Source: a virus
Length of the DNA: 42,721 bases
Virus record (IMG/VR): IMGVR_UViG_3300037502_001914
Span: 1 to 42,721 of that record
Reading direction: 5' to 3' (one strand)
The stretch's first letter is position 1, and each line of letters starts with the position of its first letter. The notes below the pieces were generated by a model. The model saw only the letters and a list, made by a program, of their open reading frames with translations. It did not search any database and was not told the DNA's origin. Of the stretch, positions 6,550 through 37,065 are shown piece by piece. The position numbers and the translations under genes were made by a program.

Positions 6550-9500
6550 TTATTCTATTTTTGGATATAAAATTAGTTTAGTATAATTAACCCACCAATA
6601 ATTAATCCCTAAAATCTGTATTGGTATTTTAGTAATTGGACCTATAACATCATTTTCATTTATGTTTTGATTTCCTTGACTAAAGTTTGGATTTGATTTT
6701 ATTTTATTTTCTATTATTGTACTTGTAAATGTACTTCCAGATTCTGAAATGATTTGAAATCCTACATAAGGATTTTTATTTGGTTCATTGGCTATATCAA
6801 TATTAATAGTTATTGTGTATGTTTGTGCTGAAACAACTTTTAAATCAAAATTTGATACTTTTGGAGGGTATCCAAATGCATATAATTTTATTAAAGTATC
6901 TTCAATCACTTTATTTGTTTGATCCAAAAACAACAATTCTTTTGGATTTGTTGTTTCAAAAGATAACTTTAAATTATATGTTTGATTAATTTCATAAATT
7001 GGTTCTTTTGGTGTTCTTTCTATTTTAATGTTATTATATGTGTATTCACAAGGTTTTGATAACTTTATTAAATCTATTGGATCAATAAGTTCCTGTTTCT
7101 GTTTTTCTGTTAACTCTATATCTTGTTTTAATGCTCTTAATGATTGTTGGGCTTCTACATATTTTTTAATTAATTTATCATAAAACCCATTAGTCTTTAA
7201 CTTATTAATTGTCTCAAATAATCTTGGATCTACATCTGAATATAACCAATTAGCTATATATGCTTCAACAAAATTAATACCTTGTGTACTTGCAATACTT
7301 GAAAATCCAACTATTCCTCTTTCCATATATTTCATATAAGTATCAAAATTACTAAACAAAGCAAAAGGTGTTTTTATGTTTATATTGTAATTGTTTTGTG
7401 CACAAAAATATAATTTTTTATTTTCATTATATTGTATAACATCCCCTCTATCATAGGTTAGCCAAACATTTCCAAAGTTATTATGATTTGCTTTAAACTT
7501 ACCATTTTCAAAACTTGATAAATAAGAAATCAAATATATATTATCTGCAATATTAACATCGCGACCCACCTTAATTGCAGCATAAATTTCTGTTGAAGAA
7601 GAATAAACAATATTTTCAGTTGTTTCTAATTCATAGTCCTTATAGTCTTCAAATAATTGACCATCACAAGTTGTTGAATTAACTTGAGTTGACCCTCCAG
7701 TCTGTGTATTATTTGTTGGTGTTGAACTTTCTGCCACATCATTTTTAATTGATTTGGAATAATTGCTTTCAATTTTTGATAATAAATTCTCATTAATACT
7801 TGTTAAATATGAATCTGTGCTAGGTGGGGAATATATACTTTGTCTAACCCCAGTAAATACAGTTTCAAATGAACCTGGTGCTATATTATGTGAAACTTCT
7901 GTGATAAAATAAGGACCACCAAACATTGGAACATGTTCCAAATTATAATACATTGTTGGTTGTATTATTGCATTACCAAAACAAGTTATGGTTGACTTAT
8001 AACTCAAATTTTTGTATAGGTTAAATAATGATACACTTTGTGTTGCTACAGCCCTATCAGATACTGAATTTCTCATAACCTCTTGTTGTATTAATGATTC
8101 TGCTGTTGCTGTACCATTATTCTGATCCACTTGTATTCCATAAAATATTGCTTGATTTCTAATACCAGCATCAACCAAAAAACTAACACATTTGTTTGAT
8201 TGTGACCAATCTTGTTTATTTGTCTGGTCTTCCAAGAATGGTATTTTTGATGGTTTCAAAATATCAATTGCATCATCACCATATCTATAATCTTTTGGTC
8301 CACTTGGTGTTGTTGAGCCTCTTCCTGCAAAAACACAAACCAATTTTGGCCCAGATTTCCTATAATCAACATCAATATAATTACCCCAAACATCATTTGC
8401 AATATTTGTTGCACTTGCAACAACATCATCAACATCATCTCCTGGAGATAAAGCACCATAGAAATTAACATATGATGGCATAGGAAAAACATTGAAGTTA
8501 TTATTCACCAATATACCTGCAATAAAATTGAATACTGGTGTTTTTAAATTTTTCTTTGCTCCAACAAGTGTCTTTTTTAACTCAAAGATATCTATGTAAT
8601 ATAAGTCTCCAATATTTCTACCACCTCTATCTAAAAATAAAACATCCTCAAATAATGTCCTTGTAGTATAATCACTACTTGATATCCATTTGTCATTTAT
8701 TGATTTAAATGATTCATATAAATCATATTTTGAAAATGTACCATCAACTGTTGATGTTATATTATTAACTTCCACAACATCAATATTATCTATTTCTTTT
8801 TGTAATAATGTTAATGTTTCATCCACATTGCTTTCCAAAAAAGCATCTAATGAATCTTGATTCTTAATTAACAAATCAAGAAAATTTTGTTTTGTAAAGT
8901 TGGGATTCTTTAATTTTTGTGTTGCAAAAATCTTTATTGGTTTTGCCAATTCAATAATATTTGATTCTGAAAATTCAATATTATTTGCTCTAAAAAAATC
9001 TGTTATATATGATCCAGTATCCTTGTATTTTAATTCATTTATTGTTGATAATCCAACATATAAATTTAAAGTTTCCCATTCTTTTGCTTTACTTGTTTGG
9101 GATTGTAGTAATGAAACACCATTTCCTGGTAATGTATTTGCAACATAACTATTATATCTTTTAGGATTTGATATTCTTGATGCCCCACCTAAATGGTTAA
9201 TCAATGAATTATATGTATATCTATTATATTGAGTTGGGTTGCCAAACTTAAATAACACATTATAATTTAAAAAACTTTCTATGAAATTATTTATATTCTG
9301 TGTCTGATATTCTGCTGATTGTTTATAAAAATCATTATTAGTTAAATTAAGATAATTTGATGGTATTTCCATTAGATTCCTAAATAGGAATTGGAAATTT
9401 TTGTATGCTGCAACTGGTTGACCAAATTCCAAATCAATTAAATTAATGTTTTTACCAGAATCATCAATATCATATATTGACTTACTAAACTTTAAAAATT

Positions 9501-28528: not shown

Positions 28529-30286
28529 ATGGCTAAAAAGAAAGTAACAAAAGATGATGCATTAGAAATATTAAAAAATTATAATGGTAATAATGATTAT
28601 TTAGTTAACATACATAATCTTTATTATAGTAACCCTAACTTTTATTTGACAGATAGTCAGATTGAATATATAACATTATTTAGTGAAATAAAACCAAAGA
28701 TTGCAAGAAAATGGGTTGATTTGGATCAGTATTATGCAAATATGATTGCTGATGATAAGTTATTGATTGAAATTCCTAAAAAATTATGGGTTGAAAAATT
28801 GCTTGTTGAAAAAGAAAAATCATACCACATTCTTGGTAAATTTTTTGAAAATGATAAATTAAATCTCCTTTGGATTCCAAAAGATGCTATTATTGTTGAT
28901 AAGACAAATAAGAATATTGAAGTTGATTTTGAAAAATATTCACATAGGATGCCTTTTCAGCATCAAAAGGAAGCAATTATAAAGCTGCTTGAAAATGATA
29001 AATTTATATTAGCAGATGATATGGGTTTGGGCAAAACAAGTTCAGCAATTGTTGCTTCAATTGAAGCAAAACCAAATAAAACATTGATAATATGTCCGGC
29101 AAGTTTAAAACAGAATTGGAAGAGGGAAATTCAAAATTATACAGATAAAGCAATTTATATTTGTGAAAGCAAAAATTATGATGATTCTGCTGATTATATA
29201 ATTATAAATTATGATATTCTAAAGAATTTTCATTCATTGAAACCAAAAGAAGAAAGTATAATTCAAAAATCCAAATTTGATTTGGTTATATTGGATGAGT
29301 GTCATTATATAAAAAATCCACAAGCATCCAGAACCAAAATAATAAATGACATTTGCAAAGATATAAACAAAATTTGGTTATTAACTGGTACACCATTAAC
29401 ATCAAGACCAATTGATTATTTTAATTTATTGTCATTGGTTGATAGTCCTGTTTCAAGGAATTGGATGACCTATGTTAGAAGATATTGTGCTGCATATCAA
29501 TTTAATGTTGGAATGAATAAAGTATGGAATGTAAACGGTGCATCAAATTTGGATGAATTAAGGGAAAGAACTGCTCCAATATTATTGAGGAGGTTAAAAG
29601 AAAATATATTAGACTTACCAGAAAAGATAATAACACCAATTTATTTAAAATTAAAATCAAAAGAATATGAGAATGTAATGGGTGAATATTTTGATTGGGT
29701 TAAAAACAACCCAAAAGAATCAAAATCATTAAGTGTTCAATTCACAAAACTTATGAAAGTTAGACAAATTATTGCTGATGAAAAAGTTAAGAACACCATA
29801 GAATTGATTGAAAATACACTAGAACAAGAAAGAAAGGTTATTGTGTTCTCAAACTTTACAGATTCATTAAACAAGATATATGAACATTTTAAAAAGAATG
29901 CAGTTAAATTAGATGGAAGTTCCACTATGAAACAACGTCAAGATAGTGTGGATAAGTTTCAGAATGAAGATAAAATTAAAGTCTTTGTTGGAAATATAAA
30001 AGCTGCTGGTGTTGGTATCACCTTAACAAGTGGTGATGTTGTTATATTTAATGATTTATCTTTTGTTCCAGCTGATCATAGTCAAGCTGAAGATAGAGCA
30101 TATAGAATTGGCCAAAAAAATTCTGTATCTGTGCTTTATCCAATATTTGAAAACACCATTGAGGGAATTATATATGATATGTTGGATAGAAAGAAAAAAA
30201 TAATATCCACAGTATTGGGTGATAACTTAATTGAAACAGATACAACTGAAGATATTTTAACACAAATATTAAATTTTGCAAAATAA
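28529..30286 (+). CDS. SNF2-family (SMARCAL1/UvsW-like) DNA helicase/translocase
   Basis: 585 residues. An N-terminal ~140-residue domain precedes a two-lobed superfamily 2 motor. Motifs in order: MPFQHQKEAI (Q-like), ADDMGLGKT near 162-170, IICPASLKQNW, LDECHYIKN near 255-263, LLTGTPLTS near 284-292, VFVGNIKAAGVGITLT, and SQAEDRAYRIGQ near 518-529. This set is typical of SNF2 ATPases that remodel or anneal forked DNA. T4 UvsW does fork regression with a related motor. It could act in recombination-dependent replication, or against host chromatin-like defences. First gene on the plus strand of the accessory island. No clear promoter in the 86-nt gap. Confidence 0.88.
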   Translation: MAKKKVTKDDALEILKNYNGNNDYLVNIHNLYYSNPNFYLTDSQIEYITLFSEIKPKIARKWVDLDQYYANMIADDKLLIEIPKKLWVEKLLVEKEKSYHILGKFFENDKLNLLWIPKDAIIVDKTNKNIEVDFEKYSHRMPFQHQKEAIIKLLENDKFILADDMGLGKTSSAIVASIEAKPNKTLIICPASLKQNWKREIQNYTDKAIYICESKNYDDSADYIIINYDILKNFHSLKPKEESIIQKSKFDLVILDECHYIKNPQASRTKIINDICKDINKIWLLTGTPLTSRPIDYFNLLSLVDSPVSRNWMTYVRRYCAAYQFNVGMNKVWNVNGASNLDELRERTAPILLRRLKENILDLPEKIITPIYLKLKSKEYENVMGEYFDWVKNNPKESKSLSVQFTKLMKVRQIIADEKVKNTIELIENTLEQERKVIVFSNFTDSLNKIYEHFKKNAVKLDGSSTMKQRQDSVDKFQNEDKIKVFVGNIKAAGVGITLTSGDVVIFNDLSFVPADHSQAEDRAYRIGQKNSVSVLYPIFENTIEGIIYDMLDRKKKIISTVLGDNLIETDTTEDILTQILNFAK

Positions 30287-30288
30287 TA

Positions 30289-30319
30289 TTTGTTTTTTTG
30301 GATTTATATTCTATCTTTG
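30289..30319 (+). promoter_or_regulatory. Bacteroidota-type host promoter
   Basis: TTTG (30289-30292), 19 nt, then TATCTTTG (30312-30319). This is an exact fit to the -33/-7 Bacteroidota consensus (TTTG and TAnnTTTG). It overlaps the end of the SNF2 region and drives the small gene at 30350. It implies recognition by the host sigma factor, so probably early transcription. Confidence 0.75.
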
Positions 30320-30349
30320 CAAAATATTTATAATAAAAACCAAAGCAAA

Positions 30350-30583
30350 ATGAAACAAAGTATTATTAAGACATCTGATTTATTTAATTGGATTTATGAA
30401 AAGGAACAACTTATAAATGCTGAAATGGTTGAGTTTGAAAAAACAGATGCCATTATGGTTCAGAAAATTACATCTTTGCAAAAAGAGTTGGAGTTATTGA
30501 GAGAATTGAATGCTTTTATTGACCACAATTACCAAGAAGAAACATTCATATTTGAAAATGAACTCTTTGAAGTTAATGCCTAA
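30350..30583 (+). CDS. Small unknown protein under host-type promoter
   Basis: 77 residues from the ATG at 30350 (MKQSIIKTSDLFNW). An in-frame TTG at 30290 lies upstream of and within the promoter and is rejected. Mostly helical, Glu-rich, with a likely coiled-coil stretch (QKITSLQKELELLRELNAF). No known family. It sits alone between the Bacteroidota-type promoter (30289-30319) and a bidirectional terminator (30587-30617), so it is a stand-alone, probably early-expressed unit. Small isolated early phage proteins often modify host machinery, but that is inference. Confidence 0.75.
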   Translation: MKQSIIKTSDLFNWIYEKEQLINAEMVEFEKTDAIMVQKITSLQKELELLRELNAFIDHNYQEETFIFENELFEVNA

Positions 30584-30620: not shown

Positions 30621-31205
30621 TTATCTTTTTATTACTCCATTTATATACCCTCCTGGTTTTACCATATTTCTAATCTCCCATGCTTTATAATTTTTTAATG
30701 GTTCAGACAAGTATAGATTACGACCAACTTTCAATCCTTCTGGTAATAATTCTATTCTTGAAAATGATAAATCTAAATAACCAACAACTTGCAAACCTTC
30801 TGGCAATGAGGTTAGGGTTGAAAATTCTAAATGCAAATTACCACCAACTTTCAAACCTTCTGGTAATGATTCCATAGATGAATATTGTAAATGCAAATTA
30901 CCTCTAACTATCAAATCTTTTGGCAATGATTCAATTGCTGATTTATATAATAGCAAATCACCACCAACCTCCAATCCTTCTGGTAGTGAGGTTATTTTTG
31001 AACCTCTTAAAGATAAATCACCCCCAACTTTCAATCCTTCTGGTAATGAGGTTATACTTGAAAATCTTAAATCCAAATCACCTTTAACATTTAATTCTTC
31101 TTTTGTTAATGGTATATTATTAATTAATTTCCATTTAACTGGTGCTCTATGCTCTCCCTTCTCTTCAAGGAAATCAAATATTCTTTTTAGTGCTTCTTTT
31201 TCCAT
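30621..31205 (-). CDS. LRR-repeat protein, cistron 11 (last)
   Basis: 194 residues, six full 20-residue repeats plus a terminal cap. The N-terminal cap MEKEALKRIFDFLEEKGEH is typical of the array. Its end, LKNYKAWEIRNMVKPGGYINGVIKR in substance, is the most divergent C-terminal cap. Repeat 6 has VVGYLDLSFSRIELLPEGL, with variant positions near the conserved G. It is the only cistron separated from its upstream neighbour by a gap (3 nt) instead of an overlap, and it is directly followed by the bidirectional terminator. Confidence 0.85.
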   Translation of the reverse strand: MEKEALKRIFDFLEEKGEHRAPVKWKLINNIPLTKEELNVKGDLDLRFSSITSLPEGLKVGGDLSLRGSKITSLPEGLEVGGDLLLYKSAIESLPKDLIVRGNLHLQYSSMESLPEGLKVGGNLHLEFSTLTSLPEGLQVVGYLDLSFSRIELLPEGLKVGRNLYLSEPLKNYKAWEIRNMVKPGGYINGVIKR

Positions 31206-31208
31206 TAT

Positions 31209-31610
31209 CTAATATATATTTCCATTTATATAACCAGGTTTTATCATTTCTCTTAATTCATCATCTGAAAGTTTTTCTAATTTTGATCCTCTAGTAAATA
31301 AATCACCCTCTAATTTCAAACCTTTTGGCAATAATGTTATTGATGTGTATCTTAAATACAAATCGCCACCAATTTTCAATCCTTCTGGTAATGAGGTTAT
31401 TGCTGATCCAAATAATAACAAATTTCCCATAACTTTTAACCCTTCTGGTAGTGAAGTTATATTTGAATTATGTAAATCTAAATCACCTTCAATATTTAAA
31501 TCATCTTCTCTTAATGGTATATCATGCCTCAATTTCCATAATAATGGTGGATTACAATTTTCATTCTCTTCAAGAAAATCAAATATTCTTTTTAGTTGTT
31601 CTTTTTTCAT
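31209..31610 (-). CDS. LRR-repeat protein, cistron 10
   Basis: 133 residues, the shortest of the array, with three full repeats. N-terminal cap MKKEQLKRIFDFLEENENC. The last repeat is degenerate (KLEGDLFTRGSKLEKLSDDE) and runs straight into the C-terminal cap ELREMIKPGYINGNIY. ATG overlaps the stop of cistron 9 by one base. The 5' end and junction lie in a 93-bp stretch identical to the cistron 3/4 junction, so this gene boundary was duplicated. Confidence 0.85.
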   Translation of the reverse strand: MKKEQLKRIFDFLEENENCNPPLLWKLRHDIPLREDDLNIEGDLDLHNSNITSLPEGLKVMGNLLLFGSAITSLPEGLKIGGDLYLRYTSITLLPKGLKLEGDLFTRGSKLEKLSDDELREMIKPGYINGNIY

Positions 31611-31668
31611 TATATTAATATTTCTCCATGTATAAATCCAGGATAAACCATTTCTCTTAATTCATCCT
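31576..31668 (-). repeat. 93-bp gene-junction block identical to 34570-34662
   Basis: Covers the N-terminus of cistron 10, the one-base overlap, and the C-terminal cap of cistron 9. Identical to the cistron 4/cistron 3 junction. Confidence 0.9.
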
Positions 31669-32092
31669 CATAATCATCATTATAATCATAGTCATCAGCT
31701 AATGGAGTTCCAATTAAGTCCAAATCACCGCCAACTTCCAATCCTTTTGGTAATGATTTTATATCTGTATATACTATATTCAAATCACCGCCAACTTCTA
31801 ATCCTTCTGGTAGTGATGTTATTTTTGTATTAGCCAAAGACAAATCACCCCCAACTTTCAACCCTTTTGGTAATAACATTATCTTTGAAATGGATAAATC
31901 TAAATCACCTTCAACTTTCAACCCTTCTGGCAATGAAGTTATATTTGATTGAAACAAATTCAAATTGCCTTTAACATTTAAATCTTCTTCTATTAATGGT
32001 TCATTATTTTTAAATTTCCATAAAAATGGTGCTCTATGCTCTCCCTTCTCTTCAAGAAACTCAAATATTCTTTTTAGTGCTTCTTTTTTCAT
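31610..32092 (-). CDS. LRR-repeat protein, cistron 9
   Basis: 160 residues, four full repeats. The C-terminal cap is a variant shared only with cistron 3: an acidic loop (ADDYDYNDDYEDEL) followed by REMVYPGFIHGEILI. Its 3' end is part of the 93-bp duplicated junction (31576-31668). Start overlaps the cistron 8 stop by 4 nt (ATGA). Confidence 0.85.
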   Translation of the reverse strand: MKKEALKRIFEFLEEKGEHRAPFLWKFKNNEPLIEEDLNVKGNLNLFQSNITSLPEGLKVEGDLDLSISKIMLLPKGLKVGGDLSLANTKITSLPEGLEVGGDLNIVYTDIKSLPKGLEVGGDLDLIGTPLADDYDYNDDYEDELREMVYPGFIHGEILI

Positions 32093-32676
32093 GTCCTATA
32101 TATCTTTCCTTTTATAACTCCAGGTTTTATCATTTCTCTTAATTGTTTATTTGTGTATTTTTTTAATGGTGTGTTATATATATGTAAATTACCACCAACT
32201 TTCAAGTCTTCTGGTAATGAGGTTATATTTGAATATGCTAAATTCAAATAACCACCAACTTTCAAACCTTTTGGTAATGAGGTTATATTTGAATATGATA
32301 AATACAAATTACCTCTAACTATTAACCCTTCTGGTAATGATTTTATTTTTGAATAATGTAAATACAAATCATCACCAACTTCCAATCCTTCTGGTAATGA
32401 TATTATTTCTGAATATGATAAATCCAAATAACCAAAAACTTTCAAGCCTTCTGGTAATGAGGTTATGTTTGAATCATTTAAATTTAAATTCCCCTCAACC
32501 TCTAATCCTTCTGGCAATGAGGTTAGAATTGTTCTTCTTAAATCCAAAGTACCACTAACTTTCAAATCTTCTTTTGTTAATGGTATATTATTAATTAATT
32601 TCCATTTAACTGGTGCATTTTGCTCTCCTTTCTCTTCAAGGAAATCAAATATTCTTTTTAGTGCTTCTTTTTTCAT
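32089..32676 (-). CDS. LRR-repeat protein, cistron 8
   Basis: 195 residues, six full repeats. It shares a 128-bp identical block with cistron 5 (32213-32340) and a 76-bp identical block with cistron 6 (32333-32408), so it is a mosaic of two relatives. One repeat has GDD in place of GGD (EVGDDLYLHYSKIKSLPEGL), a variant also found in cistron 6. Start overlaps the cistron 7 stop by 4 nt. Confidence 0.87.
   Translation of the reverse strand: MKKEALKRIFDFLEEKGEQNAPVKWKLINNIPLTKEDLKVSGTLDLRRTILTSLPEGLEVEGNLNLNDSNITSLPEGLKVFGYLDLSYSEIISLPEGLEVGDDLYLHYSKIKSLPEGLIVRGNLYLSYSNITSLPKGLKVGGYLNLAYSNITSLPEDLKVGGNLHIYNTPLKKYTNKQLREMIKPGVIKGKIYRT
32213..32340 (-). repeat. 128-bp block identical to 33845-33972
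   Basis: Base-by-base identical in cistron 8 and cistron 5, beginning and ending at GGTAATGA. Flanks differ, so this is an internal segment copy and not a whole-gene duplication. Confidence 0.9.
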
Positions 32677-33080
32677 CTCCTATATATCTTTCCTTTTATA
32701 ACTCCAGGTTTTATCATTTCTATTAATTGTTTATTTGTGTATTTTTTTAATGGTGTGTTATTTATATGTAAATTCCCACCAACTTTCAATCCTTCTGGTA
32801 GTGAGGTTATTTTTGAACCCATTAAAAATAAAGCACCTTCAACTGTTAAATCATTTGGTAATGAGGTTATGTCTGTTAAATATAAATTCAAATAACCACC
32901 AACTTTCAATCCTCTTGGTAATGAGGTTATTTTTGAGTAATGTAAATTCAAATCACCTTTAACATTTAAATCTTCTTCTATTAATGGTTCATTATTTTTA
33001 AATTTCCATAAAAATGGTGCTCTATGCTCTTCCTTCTCTTCAAGGAAATCAAATATTCTTTTTAGTGCTTGTTTTTCCAT
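32673..33080 (-). CDS. LRR-repeat protein, cistron 7
   Basis: 135 residues, three full repeats, one with a shifted consensus (TVEGALFLMGSKITSLPEGL). The C-terminal cap (TPLKKYTNKQLIEMIKPGVI) is nearly the same as that of cistron 8, and the DNA of the two 3' ends is almost identical, pointing to recent copying. ATG overlaps the cistron 6 stop by one base. Confidence 0.85.
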   Translation of the reverse strand: MEKQALKRIFDFLEEKEEHRAPFLWKFKNNEPLIEEDLNVKGDLNLHYSKITSLPRGLKVGGYLNLYLTDITSLPNDLTVEGALFLMGSKITSLPEGLKVGGNLHINNTPLKKYTNKQLIEMIKPGVIKGKIYRR

Positions 33081-33664
33081 TATCTAACTATATCATATTT
33101 TATAAATCCAGGTTTAATCATTTCTCTTAATTCATTATCTAAATATTGTTCTAATTCTGTATATCTTATATATAAATTCTCACCAACTTCTAAGCCTTCT
33201 GGTAATGAAGTTATTTTTGTTCCACTTATATTCAACTCACCCCCAACTTTCAACCCTTTTGGTAATGAGGTAATTTCTAATCCTTCTAAATTTAAATACC
33301 CTTTAACATTTAATCCTTCCGGTATTGATGTTATTTTTGATTGAAAAAGGGTTAAACTATTCCCAACTTTTAAGCCTTGTGGTAATGATTTTATTTTTGA
33401 ATAATGTAAATACAAATCATCACCAACTTCCAATCCTTCTGGTAATGATATTATTTTTGAATATGATAAATCTAAAGTACCACTAACTTTTAATCCTTTT
33501 GGTAATGATTTTATTTTTGAATCAAATAAATCCAAATCACCTTTAACATTTAAATCTTTTTCTGTTAATTGAATTTTACTCTTCACTTTCCACAAGAATG
33601 GGGGGTTACAATTTTCCTTTTCTTCAAGGAATTTAAATATTCTTTTTAGTGCTTCTTTTTTCAT
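33080..33664 (-). CDS. LRR-repeat protein, cistron 6
   Basis: 194 residues, six full repeats. The variants in repeats 4 and 5 (KVGNSLTLFQSKITSIPEGL and NVKGYLNLEGLEITSLPKGL) are the least regular in the array. It shares 76 identical bases with cistron 8 (33381-33456). C-terminal cap ends KYDIVR rather than KGKIYR. Start overlaps the cistron 5 stop by 4 nt. Confidence 0.85.
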   Translation of the reverse strand: MKKEALKRIFKFLEEKENCNPPFLWKVKSKIQLTEKDLNVKGDLDLFDSKIKSLPKGLKVSGTLDLSYSKIISLPEGLEVGDDLYLHYSKIKSLPQGLKVGNSLTLFQSKITSIPEGLNVKGYLNLEGLEITSLPKGLKVGGELNISGTKITSLPEGLEVGENLYIRYTELEQYLDNELREMIKPGFIKYDIVR

Positions 33665-34188
33665 GTCCTATATATCTTTCCTTTTATAAATCCAGATTTT
33701 ATTATTCCTCTTAATTCTTTATTTGTGTATTTTTTTAATGGTGTGTTATCTATATGTAAATTACCACCAACTTTCAAGTCTTCTGGTAATGAAGTTATTT
33801 TTGAATAAAATAAATTCAAATCACCACCAACTTCCAATCCTTTTGGTAATGAGGTTATATTTGAATATGCTAAATTCAAATAACCACCAACTTTCAAACC
33901 TTTTGGTAATGAGGTTATATTTGAATATGATAAATACAAATTACCTCTAACTATTAACCCTTCTGGTAATGAGGTTATATTTGAATAGGTTAAATACAAA
34001 TTACCTCTAACTATTAACCCTTCTGGTAATGAGGTTATATTTGTATGAGTAAAAGACAAATCACCCTTAACATTTAAATCTTTGTCTGTTAATGGAATTT
34101 TATTCTTCAATTTCCACAAAAGGGGTCCAAGATGCTCTCCCTTTTCTTCAAGAAATTCAAATATTCTTTTTAGTGCTTCTTTTTCCAT
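33661..34188 (-). CDS. LRR-repeat protein, cistron 5
   Basis: 175 residues, five full repeats. Two neighbouring 60-bp DNA units (33905-33964 and 33965-34024) differ at only two bases, so one repeat was recently duplicated in place. A 128-bp block (33845-33972) is identical to cistron 8. The C-terminal cap has IIKSGF where others have MIKPGF. ATG overlaps the cistron 4 stop by one base. Confidence 0.87.
   Translation of the reverse strand: MEKEALKRIFEFLEEKGEHLGPLLWKLKNKIPLTDKDLNVKGDLSFTHTNITSLPEGLIVRGNLYLTYSNITSLPEGLIVRGNLYLSYSNITSLPKGLKVGGYLNLAYSNITSLPKGLEVGGDLNLFYSKITSLPEDLKVGGNLHIDNTPLKKYTNKELRGIIKSGFIKGKIYRT
33845..33972 (-). repeat. 128-bp block identical to 32213-32340
   Basis: Second copy, in cistron 5; codes for the repeats with LAYSNITSLPKGL and LSYSNITSLP. 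Confidence 0.9.
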
Positions 34189-34604
34189 TAGTTATATATT
34201 TCTCCTTTTATAAAACCTGGCTTTATCATTTCCCTTAATTCTTCATCTGAATATTTTACCAATGGTGTATGAGTTATATCTAAATTGCCACCAACTTTTA
34301 ATCCTTTTGGTAATGATGTTAGTTCTGTATCTGTTAAATCTAAAGTACCACTAACTTCCAAGTCTTCTGGTAATGATTTTATTTCTGAATATGACAAATC
34401 CAAATAACCAAAAACTTTCAATCCTTTTGGTAATGATGTTATTTTTGTTGATATTAAATTCAAATCTCCTTTAACATTTAATTCTTCTTTTGTTAGGGAT
34501 TCATTAAATTTTAATTTCCAAATAAACTTATCTCTATCTTTATGTTTTTTGTTTTCTTTTTCTTCAAGGAAATCAAATATTCTTTTTAGTTGTTCTTTTT
34601 TCAT
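34188..34604 (-). CDS. LRR-repeat protein, cistron 4
   Basis: 138 residues, three full repeats. The segment between N-terminal cap and first repeat is longer and basic (ENKKHKDRDKFIWKLKFNE), like cistrons 1 and 3. Its 5' end lies in the 93-bp block (34570-34662) identical to the cistron 9/10 junction. ATG overlaps the cistron 3 stop by one base. Confidence 0.85.
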   Translation of the reverse strand: MKKEQLKRIFDFLEEKENKKHKDRDKFIWKLKFNESLTKEELNVKGDLNLISTKITSLPKGLKVFGYLDLSYSEIKSLPEDLEVSGTLDLTDTELTSLPKGLKVGGNLDITHTPLVKYSDEELREMIKPGFIKGEIYN

Positions 34605-34662
34605 TATATTAATATTTCTCCATGTATAAATCCAGGATAAACCATTTCTCTTAATTCATCCT
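34570..34662 (-). repeat. 93-bp gene-junction block identical to 31576-31668
   Basis: Second copy of the junction block, between cistrons 3 and 4. It shows that the array grew partly by copying segments that span gene boundaries. Confidence 0.9.
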
Positions 34663-35080
34663 GATTATAATCATCAGCTAATGGAGTTCCAGTTAAGTCC
34701 AAATCGCCATTGACTTCCAACCCTTTTGGTAATGATGTGATTTTAGAAAATGATAAATCCAAACTACTCACAACTTCCAACCCTTCAGGTAATGAAGTTA
34801 TGTTTGTTTCTGCTAACCACAAATGACCCCCAACTTTCAAACCTTTTGGTAAAGAAGTTAAGTGTTTACAATGGGATAAATCCAAATTTCCTTCAACTTT
34901 TAACCCTTCTGGCAATGAAGTTATATTTGATTTATACAAATTCAAATTACCTTTAACATTTAAATCTTCTTTTGTTAATGGTTCATTGAAAATTAATTTC
35001 CATTTTAATGTGTCTTTATATTTTTTACCCTCCTTCTTTTCAAGGAAATAAAATATTCTTTTTAGTGCTTGTTTTTCCAT
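34604..35080 (-). CDS. LRR-repeat protein, cistron 3
   Basis: 158 residues, four full repeats, one of 21 residues (with SHCKHLTSLPKGL). Linker basic (EGKKYKDTLKWK). C-terminal cap of the rare acidic-loop type (ADDYNQDELREMVYPGF), shared with cistron 9. ATG overlaps the cistron 2 stop by one base. Confidence 0.85.
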   Translation of the reverse strand: MEKQALKRIFYFLEKKEGKKYKDTLKWKLIFNEPLTKEDLNVKGNLNLYKSNITSLPEGLKVEGNLDLSHCKHLTSLPKGLKVGGHLWLAETNITSLPEGLEVVSSLDLSFSKITSLPKGLEVNGDLDLTGTPLADDYNQDELREMVYPGFIHGEILI

Positions 35081-35859
35081 TATCTAATTATTTTTCCTTT
35101 TATAAATCCAGGTTTAATCATTTCTCTTAATTCTTTATTTGTGTATTTTTTTAATGGTGTGAAATTTATATTCAAACTCCCACCAACTTTCAAATCTTTT
35201 GGTAATAAGGTTATAGATGAAAATGCTAAATCAAGATTACCACCAACTTCCAATCCTTCTGGCAATGAGGTTATGTTTGAACTTATTAAATTCAAACCAC
35301 CTCTAACTTTTAATCCTTTTGGTAATGAGGTTAGAATTGTTTTTCTTAAATCCAAAGTGCCACCAACTTTCAAATCTTCTGGCAATGAGGTAATATTTGT
35401 ATTACCTAATCGCAAATTTCCACCAACTTCCAATCCTTTTGGTAATGATGTTATTTTTAAATTAAAAGTACTTGAATATGTTAAATCCAAATCACCACCA
35501 ACTTTCAACCCTTCTGGTAATGAGGTTATTCTTAACCCTCTTATATCCAAATTACCACCAACTTCCAATCCTTCTGGTAAGGAACTAATAGTTGAATAGA
35601 GTAAAGTCAAATTACCCCCAACTTTTAAGCCTTTTGGTAATGATTTTATATTTACATATGTTAAATCCAAATCACCACCAACTTTCAACCCTTCTGGTAA
35701 TGATGTTATTTTTGAATCCCGTAAGTCCAAGTCACCACCAACTTCCAAATCTTCTTCTATTAATGGTATTCCATTTTTCCATTTCCATAAAAATGGAGGG
35801 TTACAATTTTCCTTTTCTTCAAGGAAATCAAATATTATTTTTAGTGCTTCTTTTTCCAT
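35080..35859 (-). CDS. LRR-repeat protein, cistron 2 (longest)
   Basis: 259 residues, nine full repeats. One repeat is 25 residues because of a five-residue insertion around STFNL, which would bulge from the solenoid. N-terminal cap reads MEKEALKIIFDFLEEKENC (Arg to Ile compared with the others). ATG overlaps the cistron 1 stop by one base. The run of near-identical repeats makes it the best candidate for gain or loss of units by recombination. Confidence 0.87.
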   Translation of the reverse strand: MEKEALKIIFDFLEEKENCNPPFLWKWKNGIPLIEEDLEVGGDLDLRDSKITSLPEGLKVGGDLDLTYVNIKSLPKGLKVGGNLTLLYSTISSLPEGLEVGGNLDIRGLRITSLPEGLKVGGDLDLTYSSTFNLKITSLPKGLEVGGNLRLGNTNITSLPEDLKVGGTLDLRKTILTSLPKGLKVRGGLNLISSNITSLPEGLEVGGNLDLAFSSITLLPKDLKVGGSLNINFTPLKKYTNKELREMIKPGFIKGKIIR

Positions 35860-36341
35860 TATCTAATTATTTCTCCTTTTATAAATCCAGGTTTAATCAT
35901 TTCCCTTACTTCTTCATCTGAATATTTTGTTAATGGTGTGTACTTTATATACAAAATCTTACCAACCTCCAATCCTTTTGGTAATGAGGTTATGGCATCA
36001 CAACCAATTATGTTTAATTCACCACCAACTTTTAAATCATCTGGCAATGATGTTATTTTTTTTTGACCTCTTAAATCCAAACTACCCCCAACTTCTAATC
36101 CTTCTGGTAATGATGTTATTTTTGTTTCATATAAACTCAAAAAACCACTAATTTTCAATCCTTTTGGTAATGATTTTATTTTTGATTTATACAGAATCAA
36201 ATTACCTTTGAAATTTAAATCTTCTTCTGTTAATGGGTAATTAAGCATAATTTTCCATGTTAGAGTTCTTTTATATTTTGGTATTTTATTTTCCTTCTCT
36301 TCAAGAAAATCAAATATTCTTTTTAGTTTGGTAATATCCAT
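35859..36341 (-). CDS. LRR-repeat protein, cistron 1 (first of eleven)
   Basis: 160 residues from the ATG at 36341 (MDITKLKRIF). A TTG at 36398 extends the frame but lies beyond the promoter box and inside the SOD gene, so it is rejected. The shared plan is an amphipathic N-terminal helix (LKRIFDFLEEKE), a WK..N.PLTEEDL linker, 20-residue repeats of type KVGGDLxLxxSxITSLPEGL, and a C-terminal cap (LxxYxxEEVREMIKPGFIKGE). It has four full repeats, two of them 21 residues long. The pattern is a leucine-rich solenoid, with the LP of each repeat recalling YopM/IpaH-type LRRs. No signal peptide, membrane segment or catalytic motif. A late box (36350-36357) is 8 nt upstream. Function unknown. Confidence 0.85.
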   Translation of the reverse strand: MDITKLKRIFDFLEEKENKIPKYKRTLTWKIMLNYPLTEEDLNFKGNLILYKSKIKSLPKGLKISGFLSLYETKITSLPEGLEVGGSLDLRGQKKITSLPDDLKVGGELNIIGCDAITSLPKGLEVGKILYIKYTPLTKYSDEEVREMIKPGFIKGEIIR

Positions 36342-36349
36342 TATCTTAA

Positions 36350-36366
36350 TATTTATATTATAAATA
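36350..36366. promoter_or_regulatory. Back-to-back late promoter boxes between LRR operon and SOD
   Basis: TATTTATATTATAAATA is a perfect palindrome around one central T. It gives TATAAATA on the minus strand (36350-36357, 8 nt before the LRR ATG at 36341) and TATAAATA on the plus strand (36359-36366, 9 nt before the SOD ATG at 36376). With only 34 nt between the two start codons, both genes would be switched on together as late genes. Confidence 0.65.
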
Positions 36367-36375
36367 TAATCTTTT

Positions 36376-37065
36376 ATGAAAATACTAGAAACAATCAAAG
36401 AAGAAATAATATCAAGAATACATAAAGATAATGTTGATTTCTTAATTCAAGAAATGAAAAAAGTTGGCATTGAAAAACTTCCTTATTCATATGCTTCATT
36501 AAAACCTTTTGTTGATGAAAAGACAATGAATATTCATTATAACAAACATTATATTGGTTATGTGGATAAATTGAATAAAGCATTAAAGAAAACAAAATCA
36601 AATGGTGATTTAAAGCAAATCATATCAAATATAAGCAAATATGATGATAAGATTAGGAATAATGCTGGTGGCGCATTTAATCATGCTTTATTCTGGAATA
36701 TGTTAACCCCCACCAAAAAGGATGTTCCAAGTGAATTAAAAACAAAAATAAATGCAAGTTTTGGAACATTTAATGCTTTCAAGAAAAAGTTTGAGGAAGT
36801 TGCAAAAGACCATTTTGGATCTGGATGGGTCTGGCTTGTTGCAACCAAAAATAATAGATTAAAAGTGATAAGCACACCAAACCAGGATAACCCCCTTATG
36901 AATGTGATTAAGGATGGGGGTTTTCCAATATTGGGATTGGATTTATGGGAACATGCTTATTATCTAAAATATCAAAACAAAAGGGATGAATATATTCATA
37001 ACTTTTGGGATTATGTAAATTGGGGTTTTGTTCTTGAATTATATCAAAATGCAAATGATAAGTAG
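36376..37065 (+). CDS. sod: Fe/Mn superoxide dismutase with N-terminal extension
   Basis: 229 residues. It would convert superoxide to H2O2 and O2. All four metal ligands are present: H54 (MNIHYNKH), H103 (GGAFNHALFWNML), D189 and H193 (LDLWEHAYYLKY). H58 and the GSGWVWLV segment are also conserved. About 30 residues precede the usual SOD start (IEKLPYSY.SL.PFVDEKT); they are not hydrophobic enough for a signal peptide, so the enzyme is probably cytoplasmic or carried in the virion. Fe versus Mn preference cannot be read by eye. It faces the LRR operon across a shared promoter region and is followed 39 nt later by gp13. Confidence 0.92.
   Translation: MKILETIKEEIISRIHKDNVDFLIQEMKKVGIEKLPYSYASLKPFVDEKTMNIHYNKHYIGYVDKLNKALKKTKSNGDLKQIISNISKYDDKIRNNAGGAFNHALFWNMLTPTKKDVPSELKTKINASFGTFNAFKKKFEEVAKDHFGSGWVWLVATKNNRLKVISTPNQDNPLMNVIKDGGFPILGLDLWEHAYYLKYQNKRDEYIHNFWDYVNWGFVLELYQNANDK

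Follow-up and report, generated by a model that had tools for sequence, protein, structure and literature searches.

An operon of eleven leucine-rich-repeat genes in a T4-like phage, its cassette exchange between relatives, and a possible role of the products as head-packaged binders

The window analysed here is the entire IMG/VR virus record IMGVR_UViG_3300037502_001914, a metagenomic fragment of 42,721 bases. At 30621-36341 it carries, on the minus strand, eleven abutting open reading frames (ORFs) for leucine-rich-repeat (LRR) proteins, transcribed from high to low coordinates. The original prediction had described eleven consecutive LRR paralogues with 53 repeats, and this was borne out by our recount (4, 9, 4, 3, 5, 6, 3, 6, 4, 3 and 6 repeats in cistrons 1 to 11) and by pairwise comparison, in which the members were 53-63% identical to one member over their whole length. 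Recounting of the ten junctions exactly reproduced the six 1-nucleotide overlaps, three 4-nucleotide overlaps and one 3-nucleotide gap that it had listed. An N-terminal helix, a WK..PLT.EDL linker and a C-terminal ELREMIKPGFIKGE motif were found in all or nearly all eleven members. Cistron 1 has an alternative TTG start at 36398, and its ATG at 36341 matches the family start. Three scans of viral contigs found relatives on 58 contigs, with 267 distinct LRR genes; because of these and of the paralogy, chance was excluded. The cistrons are listed below (aa, amino acids) with their counterparts in two related phages, G003 (IMGVR_UViG_3300036770_004143, 270 kb) and G001.

35859..36341, minus strand: LRR cistron 1, 160 aa, 4 repeats; 92.5% aa identity to cistron 7 of the G003 cluster
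35080..35859, minus strand: LRR cistron 2, 259 aa, 9 repeats; no close G003 counterpart (best 62%)
34604..35080, minus strand: LRR cistron 3, 158 aa, 4 repeats; best in G003 68%
34188..34604, minus strand: LRR cistron 4, 138 aa, 3 repeats; best in G003 63%
33661..34188, minus strand: LRR cistron 5, 175 aa, 5 repeats; structure predicted
33080..33664, minus strand: LRR cistron 6, 194 aa, 6 repeats; 93% to G003 cistron 8
32673..33080, minus strand: LRR cistron 7, 135 aa, 3 repeats; DNA 100% identical to G003 cistron 2
32089..32676, minus strand: LRR cistron 8, 195 aa, 6 repeats; DNA 100% identical to G003 cistron 3
31610..32092, minus strand: LRR cistron 9, 160 aa, 4 repeats; aa 98.8% to G003 cistron 5 and 96.9% to G001 cistron 2
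31209..31610, minus strand: LRR cistron 10, 133 aa, 3 repeats; 98.5% to G003 cistron 6
30621..31205, minus strand: LRR cistron 11, 194 aa, 6 repeats; 96% identical to the first cistron of G001

We applied AlphaFold2 to cistron 5 together with 71 relatives and found that it predicted an LRR solenoid, as had been proposed, with a mean predicted local distance difference test score (pLDDT) of 93.9 (92-98 in the solenoid, about 80 in the first 20 residues). The consensus of 463 distinct repeats was LPEGLKVGGDLDLxxSxITS, a 20-residue unit in which the turn LPxGLxV is nearly fixed and entropy peaks at unit positions 10, 12, 14, 15 and 17, the exposed positions of the LxxLxLxxNxL strand on the concave face. 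The earlier idea of a variable face between constant caps held for the face, as the variability falls on concave beta-sheet positions, but the caps are conserved in motif only. Tandem LxxLxLxxNxL-like units, an LP motif, the predicted solenoid and Foldseek matches to PDB 8z5u and SspH1 all fit the bacterial short-unit LRR fold. The nearest solved structure, 8z5u, is a Vibrio polar flagellar motor LRR protein (E 1e-31, 35% identity, template modelling score about 0.5); it differs in being a single cellular protein of a flagellar complex, and the repeat part alone aligns with it, not the phage N-terminal module. No flagellar genes were seen in the window. Next nearest were the LRR domains of SspH1 and IpaH from Salmonella and Shigella, of the same short 20-residue bacterial class, in which the LRR part selects targets, a trait that the phage proteins would share; unlike IpaH/SspH, the window proteins have 133-259 aa and end in a short C-cap. 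Pfam and PHROGs scans, which took in ten of the eleven cistrons, matched Pfam LRR_3 above cut-off in two members and detected no signal peptide, no virion or enzyme domain and no Pfam NEL ligase domain. Named families were rejected, as both collections gave just generic LRR or weak unknown-function matches, in agreement with the earlier statement that the proteins have no enzyme domain and belong to no named family. We propose that every one of these proteins forms an LRR solenoid of its own, with target specificity that would reside on the concave side.

The family is large in some relatives. G003 has 40 LRR genes in eight clusters (a first count of 39 came to 21.3 kb, or 7.9% of the record), and in the 113-kb contig G013 four clusters with 33 genuine LRR genes occupy about 16% of the sequence (36 ORFs in its listing, three of them chance matches). 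All sequences are metagenomic and the counts rest on simple ORF calling. Family members contain 2 to 18 repeats. When 84,980 bacterial and archaeal genomes were scanned by N-cap patterns, which would miss members with other caps, no relative came up, so a host-derived family with these caps is unsupported; replicons of Vibrio, Salinivibrio, Citrobacter and Sodalis contain similar repeats below 60% identity. Among 50,697 phage records, repeat-level similarity only was found, in Edwardsiella phage Edno5 (L061:3935-4678) and EBPR podovirus 1 (L062:1-780). These two unrelated phages have a single LRR gene each, of the same repeat type and close to RecT/exonuclease genes, and most of the length of the EBPR podovirus 1 gene is unannotated as a gene.

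The cluster site has a UvsW-like helicase and a small ORF on one side, and a superoxide dismutase and a head-tail adaptor on the other. The features next to the operon are as follows.

28529-30286, plus strand: UvsW-like helicase, left-hand border of the cluster together with the small ORF
30290..30583, plus strand: small ORF, with the UvsW-like helicase the conserved left-hand border
36360..36366, minus strand: TATTTAT promoter-like motif, 25 nucleotides before the first LRR ATG
36376..37065, plus strand: Fe/Mn superoxide dismutase (Pfam PF02777 1.2e-39, PF00081 3.2e-23), conserved right-hand border

Seven phages have LRR genes at this same site, in numbers of 3 (G001), 7 (G011), 8 (G003), 8 (G004), 10 (G013), 11 (the window) and at least 7 (G015). 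Between the window and G003, UvsW, the adaptor and the polymerase are 87-93% identical. Six window cistrons are 92-100% identical to G003 counterparts in scrambled order (1 to 7, 6 to 8, 7 to 2, 8 to 3, 9 to 5, 10 to 6), and the other five have no G003 counterpart above 68%. Synonymous divergence (dS) between the two phages was 0.65 in UvsW and 0.41 in the polymerase, whereas cistrons 7 and 8 are identical in DNA, so these two cassettes have passed between the lineages recently. The identity of the DNA at such core dS also rules out purifying selection as the cause of the 98-100% identical members. Within the window, the 5' and 3' gene ends have independent relationships (correlation -0.11); for cistrons 7 and 9, for example, identity falls from 95% at the 5' end to 57% at the 3' end, and cistron 5 has 129 identical bases in common with cistron 8. 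Judged from these comparisons, the LRR genes are mosaics and exchangeable cassettes. Chimeric assembly could account for some of the scrambled orders; the pattern recurs in several contigs from different metagenomes. The superoxide dismutase gene is full-length and always adjoins the LRR cluster, with 97-99% identity in close and 83-84% in distant relatives; its dS of 0.066 is low, like that of the exchanged block.

Selection was evaluated in 78 independent close pairs by the ratio of nonsynonymous to synonymous differences per site (pN/pS). The results showed values of 0.16-0.26 for the framework, 0.65-0.67 for the concave positions and 0.50-0.56 for the whole gene, and the N-cap, at about 0.6, was as high as the variable face. 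In nearby core genes the ratio of nonsynonymous to synonymous divergence (dN/dS) was 0.08-0.095. The pN/pS pattern indicates that the proteins are produced and fold, and that they change quickly, above all at the binding face and in the caps. The six closest window/G003 pairs gave an omega of about 1.0 (40 nonsynonymous and 10 synonymous changes), but general positive selection was rejected on the 0.50-0.56 of the 78 pairs. Repeats and flanking homology might also drive duplication and recombination with no selected function; free copy-number change, strong mosaicism and the low overall constraint (omega about 0.5) would suit such a neutral expansion, but frames are intact in nearly all LRR copies, the framework is constrained, and start and promoter architecture is retained, so we regard it as most improbable. 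A diversity-generating retroelement (DGR) was likewise rejected as the source of LRR variation, since the variable-repeat-like gene found in a relative does not belong to the LRR genes and no reverse transcriptase is present in the window. In that close relative, a reverse transcriptase (L091:7717-8874, RVT_1, 5.5e-15) lies beside the short variable-repeat-like gene (7455-7727), and the pair is likely a DGR.

Unbiased k-mer enrichment in G003 revealed TATTTAT upstream of starts in 48 of 131 leaders, against 6 expected, mostly 19-30 nucleotides before the ATG, and a second enriched leader motif, TATCTTTG. TATTTAT precedes the sheath, neck, adaptor, terminase, protease, scaffold and superoxide dismutase genes and none of five replication/recombination genes (DnaB, exonuclease, UvsX, SSB and UvsW). 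LRR clusters start with the motif, or closely follow a co-directional gene that has it, in seven of eight cases in G003 and four of four in G013; 37 of 40 LRR genes lie under TATTTAT chains, compared with 109 of 268 other genes. The T4 late promoter TATAAATA was rejected as the signal, as its 23 sites in the whole window are about the base-composition expectation and show no enrichment; TATTTAT replaces it. The TATTTAT class is called late because of the genes that it marks, and we infer that the LRR operons would be transcribed late with the head and tail genes. Two promoter classes were seen in G003 (L063-L076): TATTTAT before structural genes, and TATCTTTGC, of the Bacteroidota TAnnTTTG type, before another set. 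The two could serve to sort late from early genes in this clade.

The other genes of the window encode a DnaB-like helicase, an exonuclease, UvsX, SSB, a baseplate hub, a tail tube, an endolysin, a 1,048-aa tail sheath, the UvsW-like helicase, the head-tail adaptor and a DNA polymerase. This gene content (sheath, baseplate hub, UvsX, UvsW and others) identifies a T4-like contractile phage, and together with the position of all the operon's ORFs on the minus strand it supports the original description of a co-directional operon in a T4-like phage. In relatives of the window the capsid is of the Gp23 type and the prohead protease is an S77 enzyme (the protease in five of five records searched), and the clade consists of T4-like phages, partly jumbo.

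In G003 and G013, LRR genes also lie inside the head operon, in the order terminase, portal, two small genes, prohead protease, three LRR genes, scaffold and major capsid protein, with the first LRR gene beginning 1 nucleotide past the protease stop. The protease (phrog_207, 3.6e-42) and terminase were confirmed by search, and the portal and scaffold were named by position and by eye. Between the two phages, identity is 88-92% for the protease, portal, capsid protein and terminase and 45-76% for the LRR genes that lie among them. A role in assembling the large head or tail, with amplification for dosage or to serve different partners, would also suit the head-operon location and the structural promoter class. 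The 3-11 copies at one syntenic site in close relatives, the rapid exchange and the divergence are, however, a misfit with a core role, and we consider this reading quite improbable. In both phages one LRR cluster lies directly 3' of baseplate-region genes. Here attachment to the virion surface, as head decoration or at the baseplate, comes into question: the N-terminal module would hold the protein on the particle, and the solenoid would bind cell-surface or extracellular ligands and widen adsorption. The structural-gene promoter motif and the variable concave faces agree with it, but the proteins are small and of soluble type, no capsid- or tail-binding domain was recognised in them, the clusters are scattered and mostly away from tail genes, and a phage with 40 different proteins on its surface would be out of the ordinary; we judge it distinctly unlikely.

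The N-terminal helix was found apart from the solenoid and the solenoid apart from the helix. In the G003 ORF 205033-205371 (= L073:5033-5371) the LRR helix and linker (E 4.9e-17) are joined to an unrelated domain of 70 residues, for which no relative was found in Pfam or in the other ORFs. Conversely, L146:5686-7251 has the LRR domain and C-cap and, in place of the family helix, a different helix at the N-terminus, with LLNE at its end, and a helical domain; its LRR part was predicted with a pLDDT of 96-98. On these two architectures the helix is separable from the solenoid. An N-terminal amphipathic stretch ending in [LIVM]xE was found in 18 of 284 non-LRR proteins of these phages, compared with 5.6 in shuffles, and there was no excess at three control positions. 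LxE follows the helix in 10 of the 11 window members, and INE|A, read by eye, stands in the capsid protein where a propeptide could plausibly end. Recurring N-terminal signals were also seen on unrelated G003 proteins (204002-205014, 176492, 127523 and 142612), namely MNLQENINRIK..MG.LNE, MK..LTE..L..LIKR.L.E and MKDLRR.IKTTI.DFLNE, and may mark a large set of head-packaged proteins.

The T4 head holds about a thousand copies of internal proteins, which are injected. The T4-type proteins IPI, IPII and IPIII are injected inhibitors of GmrSD restriction enzymes, and T4 internal proteins as a whole are diverse injected inhibitors with only a targeting sequence in common (PMC3012670, PMC12373910). 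Like them, the LRR proteins occur in a T4-like phage whose prohead protease belongs to the same family, are small proteins of the structural-gene class, combine a shared N-terminal segment with a variable rest, and are gained and lost as cassettes between close relatives. Unlike them, they use one LRR scaffold in place of unrelated folds, number 30-40 members against about three, keep the cleavage site in about half of the members, and have no detected sequence similarity to them. The LRR family is not a member of the T4 internal-protein family. We suggest, tentatively and at somewhat less than even chances, that the products are late, head-packaged, injected binders and functional analogues of the T4 internal proteins, because the layout is the same: promoter class, head operon, shared and separable N-terminus, variable rest and rapid exchange. 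Cassette-shuffled LRR genes would be co-transcribed late with head and tail genes; the amphipathic N-terminal helix (MEKEALKRIFDFLEE) would act as a capsid targeting sequence and carry the proteins into the prohead; ejected with the DNA, they would then attach to host proteins and inhibit them as the next infection begins, with defence enzymes as the obvious candidate targets. Recombination and transfer of cassettes would change the repertoire. That a phage packages some 40 LRR binders as a library, varied on a single scaffold through exchange of cassettes and recombination within genes and injected into every new host as a pre-made and broad counter-defence repertoire, is a doubtful further step.

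Several observations weigh against packaging. Other LRR clusters adjoin tail, lysis-like or metabolic genes, not head genes; 'late' is read from a motif, TATTTAT, that several structural genes lack and that also occurs upstream of the DNA polymerase; and about 40 cargo proteins of 15-28 kDa would be a heavy load for the head. A strict [LI]xE site is kept in just 92 of 167 family members, so cleavage cannot be general, and protease cleavage of all members was rejected. The pN/pS of the helix is 0.27 on its hydrophobic face and 1.49 elsewhere, the helix may be a mere LRR cap, and PHROGs gave no match to T4 internal proteins for ten of the eleven window members. The main rival to packaging takes the helix for an ordinary cap: the LRR proteins would stay in the infected cell and act late on host, competing-phage or satellite proteins. 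Cassette turnover suits any intracellular arms race, the proteins have no signal peptide or virion domain, and the LRR genes of Edno5 and EBPR podovirus 1, beside RecT/exonuclease genes, lie in an intracellular early region. This rival, which we hold to be rather unlikely, is opposed by the LRR genes inside the head operon in two lineages, the structural-gene promoter motif and the separable helix. The roles put forward in the original prediction, anti-defence inhibitors or virion surface adapters, are not supported as written; because of promoter class, head-operon position and separable helix, we favour a virion-delivered set over inhibitors made on arrival. The family, its predicted fold, the cassette turnover, mosaic genes, promoter class, head-operon position and helix separability are sequence-based, and packaging, injection and the nature of the targets are what we infer.

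The host is probably a member of Bacteroidota. TAnnTTTG is the promoter element of this phylum, and TATCTTTG, in one promoter class of the 270-kb relative, fits it; relatives also encode a TonB-receptor-like outer-membrane barrel with a carboxypeptidase-regulatory domain, which points to the same phylum. This barrel (1,107-1,114 aa, OMP_b-brl_4 1.5e-50) is found at L065:9892-13215 (= G003 49892-53215), G001 30847-34170 and L086:2313-5657, syntenic 3' of the DNA polymerase in three lineages. A MauE/DoxX-like gene adjoins it in two lineages, and a gene that looks by eye like an S-adenosylmethionine synthetase (L086:594-1760) lies near the same locus in another relative. The phage-borne barrel possibly serves superinfection exclusion or nutrient uptake.

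A large paralogous LRR repertoire is known from a giant virus, in the FNIP/FGxxFN families of Cafeteria roenbergensis virus (CroV) (PMC9525666). The phage family resembles it in having many paralogues with diverse faces in one virus genome; it differs in that the window repeat lacks FGxxFN, and the FNIP virus has a eukaryotic host and no head-operon link. The Foldseek match to the CroV FNIP-type protein was weak (E 4.4). LRRs in tailed phages and other double-stranded DNA viruses are already known, according to Matsushima et al. 2021 as cited in PMC10945359, but previously known phage LRRs such as that of Edno5 are single genes, with no comparable expansion in the 50,697 phage records, and no paper on such a phage LRR family was found in the open literature. 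About 40 LRR paralogues per phage, exchanged as cassettes and linked to the head operon, thus appear new with respect to the records and open papers searched.

If the packaging reading is true, interchangeable binders take up 8% of the 270-kb G003 genome and about 16% of the 113-kb contig G013, and these phages would match defence variety with a single mutable scaffold delivered in bulk, not with one newly evolved inhibitor per system. To our knowledge, few anti-defence genes are known in Bacteroidota. Any one of these proteins would be a natural binder, and its target would give a lead to a protein of host defence or takeover, probably in Bacteroidota. As an injected library, the family would be the attacking equivalent of the variable LRR receptors of jawless fish and would enlarge the T4 internal-protein strategy tenfold.

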